Shown: piece after piece, positions 54,303-58,695 of the stretch
Position numbering within the stretch: the first letter of the stretch is position 1
Layout: each line of letters begins with the position of its first letter
From: Thiohalorhabdus sp. Cl-TMA
GTDB taxonomy: Bacteria; Pseudomonadota; Gammaproteobacteria; Thiohalorhabdales; Thiohalorhabdaceae
DNA: 64,000 nt
Direction: 5' to 3'
Assembly (NCBI RefSeq): GCF_041821045.1
Contig: NZ_JBGUAW010000003.1
Coordinates: 124,001 to 188,000 of the forward strand
Made by a program: the position numbers and the translations under genes
The notes under the pieces: model-generated
Seen by the model: only the letters and a program-made list of their open reading frames with translations
What the model was told of the DNA's origin: nothing
Database searches by the model: none

Positions 54303-54440
54303 TGGCCGGCAAGGGCGGTGCCGGTCTCTACCGCGGATAGCACGGCCGCGCCGCGTCCGGACCCGGGGATTCCCTGACCGGCCGGGTTTGCGTAATGTGA
54401 CCGGGTGAGGGGGCGAATCTCGCCACCACGGAGGACGGCA

Positions 54441-55250
54441 ATGGGAGCGGCGAAACCGGGGGCGCGGCCGCGCGTGGCCGTCCACAAGCTCAGCTCCTGC
54501 GACGGCTGCCAGCTCGCCTTTCTCGATCTGGGCGAGGATCTGGTGCGGCTCGCCGAGCTGGTCGACTTCGTCCATTTCGCCGAGGCGGGTCCGGTGGACC
54601 CGGACGCCGAAGTGGACATCGCCTTCGTCGAGGGCAGCATCGCAACCCCCGACGAGGTGGCGCGGATCAAGCGCATCCGGGCCAACAGCCGCTACCTGGT
54701 GCCCATCGGCGCCTGCGCCACCTCCGGCGGCATCCAGGCCCTGCGCAATCTGCACGACGGGGAGAAGTGGCTGGCGGAGGTCTACCCTTCCCCGGAGTAC
54801 GTGGAGAGCCTGGCCACCTCCACGGGCATCGCCGACAACGTGGACGTGGACTACGAGCTGTGGGGCTGCCCGGTAAACGGCCGCCAGGTGCTCGCGGCGG
54901 TCCGCGCGCTGCTCTGGGGGGTGGATCCGGTGCCCGAGCAGGACAAGGTGTGCATGGAGTGCAAGCGCGCCGGCAACGTCTGCGTTCTGGTGAGCCGCGG
55001 GACGCCCTGCCTGGGGCCGGTTACCGTCACCGGCTGTGGCGCCCTGTGTCCCGCCTTCGGCCGCGACTGCTACGGCTGCTACGGGCCGGCGGAGAACCCC
55101 AATACGGAGGCGCTGGGACGTCGCTTCCGGGGGCTGGGTCTGCTGCCCGAGGAGGTGGCGCGCCGCTTCCACTTCATCCACAGCCACCGGGAGCCCCTGC
55201 GCTCCGCCGGCCGTCGGTGGCGCGAGGACCGGGGGGCGGACGATCCGTGA
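54441..55250 (+). CDS. hydD: Group 3b [NiFe] hydrogenase delta (small) subunit
   Basis: The 269-residue protein is the small, iron-sulfur subunit that carries electrons from the NiFe site. Cysteines are placed as for three [4Fe-4S] clusters: LSSCDGCQLAFLDL, PIGACATSGGIQ, CMECKRAGNVCVLV, PCLGPVTVTGCGALCP and DCYGCYGPAENPN. It lacks a Tat signal and membrane anchor, so the enzyme is cytoplasmic. GGAGG precedes the ATG at 54441 by 6 nt. The large subunit starts inside its stop (GTGA). Its electron-transfer partners HydB and HydG are encoded at 37784-39713. Confidence 0.9.
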   Translation: MGAAKPGARPRVAVHKLSSCDGCQLAFLDLGEDLVRLAELVDFVHFAEAGPVDPDAEVDIAFVEGSIATPDEVARIKRIRANSRYLVPIGACATSGGIQALRNLHDGEKWLAEVYPSPEYVESLATSTGIADNVDVDYELWGCPVNGRQVLAAVRALLWGVDPVPEQDKVCMECKRAGNVCVLVSRGTPCLGPVTVTGCGALCPAFGRDCYGCYGPAENPNTEALGRRFRGLGLLPEEVARRFHFIHSHREPLRSAGRRWREDRGADDP

Positions 55251-56548
55251 GCGATGCCGGGCGCCGCATCGATATCCGGGTCCCGGTGCTTGCCCGGGTG
55301 GAGGGGGAGGGCGCGTTGGAGGTGCACGCCGAGGCCGGCCGTATCACCGACCTCCGCCTGCGTATCTACGAGCCGCCGCGGCTGTTCGAGCGGTTCCTGG
55401 TGGGCCGGGACCACTCGGAGGTGGCCGACGCCGTGGCCCGCATATGCGGCATATGCCCGGTGGCCTACCAGATGAGCGCCGTGCAGGCCCTGGAGTCCAT
55501 CTTCGGCGTGGAGCCGGACGAGTGGGTGCGCGCCATGCGTCGCGTGTTCTACTGCGGCGAGTGGATCCAGAGCCACGCCCTGCACATCCACCTGCTCGCG
55601 GCCCCGGACTTCTTCGGCTACGAAAGCGCCCTGGCCATGACCGCTGACCACCCGGGGGAGGTACGTCGCGGCATGCGCCTGCAGGCTCTGGGCAACGAGG
55701 TCATGGCCCTGTTCGGCGCCCGGGCGGTGCACCCGGTGGGAGCGCGGGTGGGCGGCTTTCACCACGCCCCCGCCGCGGCGGCCGTACGCGACCTGCGCGC
55801 CCGGCTGGAGGCCGCCCTCCCGGAGGCGGAGGCGCTGGTGCGCTGGGCCGCCGGCTTCCCCCTTCCCGATAATGGCCAGGATTTCCCCTATCTGGCCCTG
55901 CGCAACGGCGCGGACTATCCCATGAACCGGGGACGGCTCAGCGCCTCCACGGGACTGGACGCCCCCGTCTCCGAGCTCGCCGACCACGTGGCCGAGGAGC
56001 AGGTGCCCCACTCCACGGCCTTCCACGCCCGCCTGCACGGCGAGCCCTACCTGGTGGGTCCGCTGGCCCGTCTGAACCTCAACGCCGACCTGCTGCCGAC
56101 GGAGACCCGGGCCCTGCTGGGGGAAACGGGGCCGGCGCTGCCCAGCACCAATCCCTTCCATTCCCTGCCCGCCCGGGCCCTGGAGATCCACGCCGCCCTG
56201 GTGGAGGCGGTGCGGCTCCTCGCGGATTATCGGGCTCCGGAACGGCCCCACGCCGAGGTGACGCCGCGGGCGGGGGTCGGCTACGGCGCCACCGAGGCGC
56301 CGCGTGGGCTGTTGTGGCACCGCTACGAGACCGACGGGTCCGGACGCGTCACCGCCGCCCGGATTATGCCGCCCACCAGCCAGAATCAGGCGCGCATGGA
56401 GGAGGATTTACGGGCCACCCTGGAGGCGCGCGGACTGGACGCCCCGGACGCGGAGCTACGGTTCCTGGGAGAGCGGGTGATCCGCAATTACGATCCCTGC
56501 ATCTCCTGCGCCACCCACTTTCTGGACCTGACCGTCCGGCGCCGATGA
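55247..56548 (+). CDS. hydA: Group 3b [NiFe] hydrogenase alpha (large, catalytic) subunit
   Basis: The 433-residue catalytic subunit binds the NiFe centre. The N-terminal motif is RICGICPVAYQMSAVQ and the C-terminal motif DPCISCATH, together giving the four Ni ligands. The His that commonly follows the first CxxC by three residues is Tyr here. Nine residues (FLDLTVRRR) follow the last motif and would be removed by the maturation protease encoded next. The GTG start overlaps the delta stop (GTGA). The enzyme would exchange H2/H+ with NAD(P)H and perhaps reduce polysulfide. Confidence 0.93.
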   Translation: MSDAGRRIDIRVPVLARVEGEGALEVHAEAGRITDLRLRIYEPPRLFERFLVGRDHSEVADAVARICGICPVAYQMSAVQALESIFGVEPDEWVRAMRRVFYCGEWIQSHALHIHLLAAPDFFGYESALAMTADHPGEVRRGMRLQALGNEVMALFGARAVHPVGARVGGFHHAPAAAAVRDLRARLEAALPEAEALVRWAAGFPLPDNGQDFPYLALRNGADYPMNRGRLSASTGLDAPVSELADHVAEEQVPHSTAFHARLHGEPYLVGPLARLNLNADLLPTETRALLGETGPALPSTNPFHSLPARALEIHAALVEAVRLLADYRAPERPHAEVTPRAGVGYGATEAPRGLLWHRYETDGSGRVTAARIMPPTSQNQARMEEDLRATLEARGLDAPDAELRFLGERVIRNYDPCISCATHFLDLTVRRR

Positions 56549-56991
56549 CCAGCGTGGCGGTGCTCGGCATCGGCTCGCCCTTCGGCGGCGACCGGCTGGG
56601 CTGGGCGGTGGTGGAGGCGCTGCGGGCGGGAGCCCGGGACGGCTGGCCGGAGGTCCGCTTCCGGGCGCTGGACCGGCCGGGTGCCGGACTCGTGGCCCAT
56701 CTGGAGGGGATGGACCACGCCGTGCTCGTGGACGCGGTACGCACCGGGGCGGCCCCGGGCACGCTCCACCGCATCACCGACCGCGCGCGGCTGCCCGTTA
56801 CGGATGCCCTGTCCTCCCACGGCTTCGGGCTGGCCGAGGGGCTGGCCCTCGCCGAACGGCTGGGACAGCTCCCCGAGTGGGTGGTCATCGGAGTCGAGGC
56901 GGACCCGGGCTCCGAGCCCCGGCAGGAGACGGTGGGCCGGGCCGTCGCTCTGGTGCGCGCCGAGGTTGCCGCCCGGCTGGCGGGGTTCTAA
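56545..56991 (+). CDS. Hydrogenase maturation protease, HyaD/HycI-like
   Basis: The 148-residue endopeptidase starts VAVLGIGSPFGGDRLGW, the N-terminal motif in which an Asp binds nickel (family GxGNxxxxDD; here the Asn is Ser and one acid is Gly-Asp). It continues VLVDAVRTGAAPGT and SSHGFGLAEGLALAE, whose His and Asp are also expected nickel ligands. It trims the short C-terminal tail of the large subunit. The start overlaps the hydA stop (ATGA). No hyp accessory genes are in the window. Confidence 0.88.
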   Translation: MTSVAVLGIGSPFGGDRLGWAVVEALRAGARDGWPEVRFRALDRPGAGLVAHLEGMDHAVLVDAVRTGAAPGTLHRITDRARLPVTDALSSHGFGLAEGLALAERLGQLPEWVVIGVEADPGSEPRQETVGRAVALVRAEVAARLAGF

Positions 56992-57012: not shown

Positions 57013-57564
57013 CTAGGCCGCCGTCTCCAGGCGGTCCAGGATCGCCGCCTCGGCCGGACTGGTGAGGGAGAGCACACGGATCAGCTCGCGCTCCTCCATG
57101 CCGTTGCGCAGCCGGGCGCGGCAGTGGCGCTGGATGCGCGCCGTGTCCAGGTCCGGGTCGGTCAGCTCCAGACAGCGACGGTCCAGCAATCGCTCCACGC
57201 GATTCCGGGCCAGCGGGTCCGCGCCCGCCTCCCCGCGGTAGATCCAGAGTACCGGGCCCCTGCTCGCCTGATAGGGAAGGAAGAAGCGGGCGGCTTCCGT
57301 CTGGCCGTTCCGAAGCAGGGCGGACCACAGGTGGTCGGTGAGCTCTCCGGGCTGTGCGGTCCCGGACGGTAGCTCGGCGCGCACCCGGTCCAGAAGGCAT
57401 CGGACCCGGGTCCGGATGCGCTGGTCGGCAGCCGGTCCGGAGCCTTCGTGAATTCGCAGGACGCGGCCCAGATGCTGGGCGGCCCAGTGCAGGGTGGCGG
57501 AATCGGAAGCTCGGGAGCAGAGAGGGCCGAAGCCGGAGGCCGGCCGGGAAGGGGGAGTGCTCAT
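57013..57564 (-). CDS. Unknown protein, 183 aa, under a cobalamin riboswitch
   Basis: I do not recognise this protein. It is soluble, without signal peptide, Arg-rich and probably mostly helical. Notable segments are LHWAAQHLGRVLRIHEG (about residues 22-38), RTRVRCLLDRVRAEL and LWSALLRNGQTEAARFFLPYQ. The final stretch is ARLRNGMEERELIRVLSLTSPAEAAILDRLE. It stands alone between the convergent hydrogenase protease gene (gap of 21 bp) and the riboswitch upstream. GGAG 6 nt before the ATG is part of a hairpin. The cobalamin riboswitch means expression should fall when B12 is plentiful, so a role in cobalt/cobalamin uptake, synthesis, or a B12-independent substitute enzyme is likely. No such enzyme motif is visible. 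Confidence 0.75.
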   Translation of the reverse strand: MSTPPSRPASGFGPLCSRASDSATLHWAAQHLGRVLRIHEGSGPAADQRIRTRVRCLLDRVRAELPSGTAQPGELTDHLWSALLRNGQTEAARFFLPYQASRGPVLWIYRGEAGADPLARNRVERLLDRRCLELTDPDLDTARIQRHCRARLRNGMEERELIRVLSLTSPAEAAILDRLETAA

Positions 57565-57570
57565 GGGGAT

Positions 57571-57608
57571 CTCCAATCGCCGCGGTAGCGCGTTTCGGTC
57601 GATTGGAG
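57571..57608 (-). promoter_or_regulatory. SD-sequestering hairpin (riboswitch expression platform)
   Basis: Read on the minus strand, CGATTGGAG (57579-57571) contains the GGAG of the unknown gene. It pairs perfectly with CTCCAATCG (57608-57600) across a 20-nt loop. This 9-bp stem would hide the ribosome binding site, as expected for a translational riboswitch. Confidence 0.75.
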
Positions 57609-57727
57609 CCAACGCGGAGGAGCCGGGATAACGGGGGATGCGGCGGCCCGCCGATCCCGGAGCCCTGGTCCGGAAAACCGGACTGCGACGCGAAGGCTCG
57701 CGGGTTCTCCTCCATCACGTGGACGGA

Positions 57728-57895
57728 GGCCCTCCGGCAGGTCTTCGGACTCAGGGGCCATCTACGGCCGCGGCTTCCCACCCCCAAGGGCAGTGCCCGG
57801 GCCGCCCGGTTCGGCGGCCCATGCGGCTTTCGCTCCCCAATACCGCTGCGCGTCAGTCCCGGAATCGCACCGGGTTCCCTCTTGCGTCACCCCAA
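57728..57895 (-). ncRNA. Cobalamin (B12) riboswitch aptamer
   Basis: On the minus strand the conserved elements appear in order: GAGGGAACCCGGTGCGATTC then CGGGACTGACGCGCAGCGGTA, GGGGAGCGAAAGCCGCATGG, CACTGCCC with TGGGAAGCCGCGGCC, and finally the B12 box GAGTCCGAAGACCTGCC (57752-57736). This is the class I cobalamin (adenosylcobalamin-type) aptamer. It lies 164 nt upstream of the 183-aa unknown gene and points at it. A second hairpin (TCACCCC/GGGGTGA, 57887-57909) lies at its 5' end. Confidence 0.93.
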
Positions 57896-58113
57896 GATTT
57901 GGGGGGTGAGCCGGAGCATAGGCCCAAGATACGGGGTTATGCGGCGCGGGACAAGAGGTCGTTGCGGCAAAGGAGGAAATGGCCTACTGTCCTGAATCAC
58001 AAAATCCTCTGTCCGCCGGTCCGGCAGGTCGGTCCGGTGAGGGGGGGACGAGAGCGGCGCAGTCCGTCCGGACTGCGCGCCGACTGGCAGGAATTCCCAT
58101 GCAAGGAGCGGCT

Positions 58114-58695
58114 ATGGGTGTCTCCCGGGCCCTGCGCATTACGCTGACAACGGTGTCCCTGGCGATCCCGGTCGCGGCCGTGGCGGAGCCCGCGCTCGGG
58201 CCTAGCGTCTATGGTGGCCTCTCCTTTCACCATACCGAGCCTTCCGGCAACCGGTCCGGGGATTCCTACGGCAGCACGGGCCTCAGCTTCGGCCTCGACT
58301 ATCAGATTCCGCAGAGCGCGGTCTTCTCCATCGTGCCTTTCACGGCCCTTTCCCTGGAGAACTCGGACAACGCGGCGAGCTCCCGGGCCTCGGTGAACAA
58401 CGGCGTCGCGGCCCTGGAGGGTCGGGTCTGGTACCGGAGCTTCTTCATGGGCCTGCACGGCGGCTACTATGTCCAGGAGGTGAGCTACAGCGACGCGACC
58501 CGCAAGGGCGGCGGGTTCGGCTGGGGGCTCAGTCTGGGCACCAAGCCCAGCGCCTCCCTGGGGGCCGGTCTCGCGGAAGGTACCTATGTCATGGTGCAGA
58601 TCGATCACGGCAAGAATCTGGACGTGGGGCCGCAGCCCGACGCGGATCGGGATATCAAGGCCTTCCGGCTCTTCATGGGCTACCGCTTCCCCTAG
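58114..58695 (+). CDS. Outer-membrane beta-barrel protein (OmpW/OprF-like size), unknown
   Basis: The 193-residue protein has a signal peptide (RITLTTVSLAIPVAAVA, cleavage near AVA-EP). About eight amphipathic beta strands follow, ending in an aromatic C-terminus (LFMGYRFP, close to the usual terminal Phe). The pattern GPSVYGGLSFHHTE, FGLDYQIPQSAVFSIVPF and GLHGGYYVQEVSY fits a small 8-strand barrel. I do not assign a family. AAGGAG lies 6 nt before the ATG at 58114; an ATG at 58099 is an alternative. The gene faces away from the riboswitch-controlled gene. Confidence 0.72.
   Translation: MGVSRALRITLTTVSLAIPVAAVAEPALGPSVYGGLSFHHTEPSGNRSGDSYGSTGLSFGLDYQIPQSAVFSIVPFTALSLENSDNAASSRASVNNGVAALEGRVWYRSFFMGLHGGYYVQEVSYSDATRKGGGFGWGLSLGTKPSASLGAGLAEGTYVMVQIDHGKNLDVGPQPDADRDIKAFRLFMGYRFP

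Follow-up and report, generated by a model that had tools for sequence, protein, structure and literature searches.

The 183-aa gene behind a cobalamin riboswitch in Thiohalorhabdus sp. Cl-TMA encodes a diverged, stand-alone N-terminal double ATP-cone of the class I ribonucleotide reductase (RNR) NrdA, without the catalytic part. Most likely, a riboswitch-nrdA locus lost its enzyme and kept the double cone as a protein synthesized under B12 shortage. This is the overall best explanation, and we put its probability at roughly 0.6 with history and regulatory role taken together; its anatomical and evolutionary side is highly probable. The features, numbered within the window (the whole stretch of 64,000 nucleotides that was analysed), are as follows:

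57719-57930, minus strand: complete cobalamin riboswitch aptamer, RF00174 (Rfam cmscan)
57571-57608, minus strand: candidate expression platform hairpin CTCCAATCG...CGATTGGAG, pairing the GGAG ribosome-binding site (conserved stem and folding)
57013-57564, minus strand: 183-aa stand-alone relative of the NrdA N-terminus, coding sequence with stop (5im3 profile match, hhalign, omega)
57268-57525, minus strand: diverged ATP-cone 1, aa 14-99, with the helices kept and the nucleotide-binding motif (VIRRNG...KI) lost (VIA-align, column comparison)
57016-57258, minus strand: diverged ATP-cone 2, aa 103-183, with the beta-hairpin kept and the C-terminal helix shortened (alignment, predicted strands)

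Three genomes of the genus were sampled, namely the source genome (G000) and G001, both near-complete, and G002, a MAG that is 82% complete; each contributed one orthologue (n = 3). When a profile of the three orthologues was searched against the PDB, Pseudomonas aeruginosa NrdA (5im3) was the sole match (E of 1.3e-8), with both cones included and the alignment spanning chain residues 60-209. The protein is thus homologous to the NrdA N-terminus, and the earlier note was wrong to place it in an unknown family. Comparison with 18 NrdA N-termini in hhalign gave 98.3% and an E value of 2.3e-14. A single-sequence search of 94 related genomes matched, beyond the genus, the NrdA N-termini of G015 and G092, and pairwise BLASTP against NrdA gave E values of 2e-9 and 8e-10. 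Pfam recognized no family in the 183 residues at E ≤ 5, with the ATP-cone family PF03477 below its gathering score, and the Pfam, NCBIfam and PHROGs scans returned weak unrelated matches only. A MobA match (E of 0.096) and a phage tail match of the G001 orthologue (E of 0.013) were under the cut-offs and were taken as noise. The earlier note had also seen none of the domains usual for B12-riboswitch targets. However, the protein derives from NrdA, a B12-independent isoenzyme class known for such control.

Profile searches covered 369 genomes of the class and 398 of the phylum. Outside the genus, the matches lay in frames of NrdA size, mostly 900-1360 aa, the few exceptions being contig-cut frames and a weak 96-aa match in G095 that contains two stops. 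These class and phylum genomes yielded no convincing stand-alone copy outside the genus, and a scan of genome contigs returned the G002 copy only. Our literature searches found no report of a stand-alone ATP-cone, or of one under a cobalamin riboswitch.

The open reading frame starts with ATG and runs from 57564 to 57013 as the sole gene behind its riboswitch. The next gene downstream is convergent and ends at 56991 on the plus strand, so the monocistronic arrangement described earlier stands. The single gene itself proved real, as intact orthologues of similar length in the other two genomes and purifying selection attest. The three orthologues are 43-55% identical (55% for G001 and 48% for G002 against the G000 protein), with no frameshift or stop in any. 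Codon models gave omega values of 0.16-0.32 without position-specific frequencies and 0.02-0.12 with them, values that are approximate in size but clear in direction given only three orthologues and synonymous sites near saturation; the likelihood ratios against omega = 1 were 18-32 or more. For the G000-G001 pair, omega was at least 1 in four of the five alternative frames; the remaining one is antisense with the same third positions, so that a mirrored signal is to be expected there. Purifying selection thus acts on the protein, which indicates that it is functional.

The riboswitch matched RF00174 over model positions 1-189 of 189, and its 86.4 bits exceed the gathering score of 31.5 (E of 6.6e-20); it was the only RNA family match across the whole window. 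This covariance-model result confirmed the aptamer placed earlier at 57728-57895 on the minus strand, which is the core of the full match from 57930 to 57719. A cobalamin riboswitch precedes the gene in all three genomes of the genus (86.4, 98.3 and 73.2 bits), and the question raised earlier, whether homologues lie behind B12 riboswitches, is answered positively for all three orthologues. The source genome holds four cobalamin riboswitches in total. The other three precede a BtuB-type TonB receptor, a CobN-like chelatase and another BtuB-related TonB receptor (approximate names, the scores being under the curated cut-offs), all as expected for cobalamin control.

Between the aptamer and the ATG sits the hairpin, which has the GGAG ribosome-binding site (57574-57571) in its 3' arm. 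The three species have an identical stem (GGCTCCAATCG/CGATTGGAG) with a loop of varying length, and this stem folds better than shuffled sequences (z of -1.9, -3.3 and -3.5 in the three species). An intrinsic terminator was sought in the leader as expression platform, and none was found. The conserved SD-pairing stem together with the lack of an intrinsic terminator fits translational control; the leader is consistent with an expression platform able to control the downstream gene, with the switching itself predicted. Cobalamin riboswitches are usually OFF with ligand, and by this analogy the direction would be the same here. With B12 (AdoCbl) plentiful, the bound aptamer would leave the SD in the hairpin and no protein would be made, and with B12 scarce the 183-aa protein would be translated.

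An AlphaFold model of the protein reached a pLDDT of 80 from an input alignment that included NrdA rows, which may favour the cone result. In this predicted model, cone 1 aligned with residues 37-126 of 5im3_B with a Z of 10.4 and an rmsd of 2.1 over 81 residues (VIA-align), and cone 2 has predicted strands at 105-109 and 115-119. A model from the three orthologues alone had a pLDDT of 60, and 5im3 was again the top Foldseek match (E of 0.01, probability 1.00). Both models point to the four-helix bundle fold of an ATP-cone, more weakly when the NrdA rows are omitted. Of 65 nearly invariant NrdA columns, the orthologues keep 21-25. Columns 46-49 and 58-59 (the K/R-R-x-G and Lys-Ile of cone 1) are replaced in all three orthologues, except for one R in G002. 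Furthermore, the three have the replacements K28R, F30L, E79W, M83L, Y94F and L96P in common (NrdA alignment numbering), and they therefore descend from one already altered ancestor. In Escherichia coli, the KRDG motif, equivalent to VIRRNG, and K21 contact the nucleotide phosphates (PMC11447812). Because the nucleotide motif of cone 1 is lost, canonical ATP/dATP sensing is doubtful, and judging from these residues the protein probably does not sense ATP/dATP in that way.

G000 and G001 each hold two RNR barrel genes (PF02867). Both G000 genes pass the NCBIfam cut-off of TIGR02504, the AdoCbl-dependent class II NrdJ, and by sequence the two G001 genes are orthologous to them. Neither NrdB nor the class III NrdD was found in G000 and G001; as far as found, the RNRs of each of these genomes are two B12-dependent class II NrdJ, with class I and class III absent. 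G000 has one ATP-cone gene, NrdR-like in size. In both G000 and G001, one NrdJ gene is preceded by a near-perfect NrdR box (ACACAAGATATTGTGT; L013 position 1083 and L014 position 1088), and at the locus of the 183-aa gene no NrdR box within 4 mismatches was found in the window. The G002 NrdA, on contig C6, is the only NrdA of the genus and may stem from horizontal transfer or from contamination in binning; its contig has 63.6% GC versus about 70% for the riboswitch-gene contig, and no riboswitch was found on it. Among relatives, G092 and G128 hold class II RNRs, and their nrdA starts shortly after a cobalamin riboswitch. In G015, NrdA is the only RNR barrel gene, with no riboswitch in the stretch searched. 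Intein-like insertions were apparent in two RNR genes: a G001 NrdJ (C7, near 130551-133313) has a frame of 1128 aa (753 in G000) and a splice-like ...HNC junction, and the riboswitch-controlled NrdA of G092 (C11) has a 1350-aa frame.

In the ancestor, then, the riboswitch would have controlled a class I nrdA with a double ATP-cone, a B12-independent backup for the class II NrdJ. Loss of the catalytic barrel and of nrdB would have followed, and the leader and first ~180 codons, comprising both cones, would have stayed and gone on evolving under purifying selection as a protein of their own. We infer an origin in situ by truncation; no truncation intermediate or nrdA debris was seen at the site. 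Origin by duplication is possible, and the NrdA that G002 still has, on its riboswitch-free contig of lower GC, would be in keeping with it. A quite improbable alternative is that the locus is in decay and has no function: a lost nrdA would have left behind its leader and N-terminus, which happen to stay open in GC-rich DNA. The loss of the nucleotide-binding motif, the cut C-terminal helix of cone 2, the synteny kept only in part and the rarity of stops in DNA of 70% GC would all suit decay. However, decay is hard to reconcile with three species free of frameshifts and stops at 43-55% identity, with omega at 0.16-0.32 and likelihood ratios of 18-32 where the other frames are mostly at 1 or above, with the replacements common to all orthologues, and with the conservation of the riboswitch and SD hairpin as well.

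As to its role, the retained double cone may, tentatively, be a regulatory module that works through protein-protein contacts and tunes what is left of the dNTP system (NrdJ or NrdR) in B12 shortage. The more specific idea, in which a stand-alone double ATP-cone induced by B12 starvation acts in trans on the class II RNR or NrdR under the riboswitch of the enzyme itself, is doubtful. The earlier suggestion of a new component of B12-related metabolism is tenable only for an RNR-derived protein of putative function, and not for a domain-less newcomer, as the protein derives from NrdA. It is unlikely that only the origin lies in NrdA and that the double cone was co-opted outside nucleotide metabolism, e.g., for B12 handling or hydrogenase assembly. 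The lost nucleotide site agrees with co-option, as do the neighbours in G000 and G001, where [NiFe]-hydrogenase genes adjoin the 183-aa gene (in the window, apparent small and large subunit and maturation protease genes at 54405-56991 on the plus strand, named from their translations only). The G002 neighbourhood is different, however, and the hydrogenase role was set aside for this reason; moreover, the B12 control is the same as that on the RNR backup in relatives. On the other side of the locus, a divergent gene for a secreted outer-membrane-like protein (58114-58695, plus strand) adjoins the riboswitch and is conserved in G001 (41% identity). Very unlikely is a classical ATP-cone switch acting in trans on the class II RNR with a cone 2 that still binds ATP/dATP. 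Cone 2 does keep its beta-hairpin and the invariant basic residues R110 and R122, but its last helix is shortened, P. aeruginosa NrdA binds nucleotides in the N-terminal cone only (PMC5794259), and inner cones are variable at the ligand residues (PMC9669993).

The accepted role of B12 riboswitches on class I RNR is to control a backup. At this locus the backup has disappeared, yet the switch and a regulatory domain persist under selection in genomes whose DNA synthesis is, as far as found, wholly B12-dependent. Should the protein act on NrdJ or NrdR, a module derived from an ATP-cone would be working in trans, with a bearing on the regulation of class II RNRs that lack cones. If it is instead a remnant, the locus would show cleanly how a riboswitch can outlast the enzyme it controlled.

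NrdR is a stand-alone ATP-cone repressor of RNR genes, with an N-terminal zinc ribbon followed by one ATP-cone. The 183-aa protein resembles it in being a small ATP-cone-based protein encoded apart from RNR. However, it has two cones rather than one and no zinc-ribbon DNA-binding domain (no zinc ribbon or CxxC pairs were found in the 183 residues), and the genome has a separate NrdR-like protein. As in the class Ia NrdA of P. aeruginosa (5IM3), the two cones stand in the same order and cone 1 has the same fold in the predicted model (Z of 10.4), whereas the barrel is missing, the cone-1 nucleotide motif is lost, cone 2 is shortened and the protein stands alone. It ends after cone 2 and so lacks the PF02867 barrel of a class I NrdA; the only PF02867 genes of G000 are the two class II enzymes, and no NrdB partner was found. 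In Leeuwenhoekiella blandensis NrdBi (5OLK), a cone likewise occurs outside its usual place, and the predicted cone-1 fold aligns with it (Z of 9.8), but the NrdBi cone is fused to an RNR subunit and binds two dATP. The closest parallel in gene arrangement is found in Streptomyces nrdABS, which is B12-riboswitch-controlled (Borovok et al. 2006, as related in PMC5962746), and in G092 and G128. In all of these, as far as that account of Streptomyces goes, a cobalamin riboswitch lies directly upstream of an nrdA-derived frame in a genome with a class II RNR, whereas in the present locus the enzyme is gone, and no class I RNR was found in G000 and G001.
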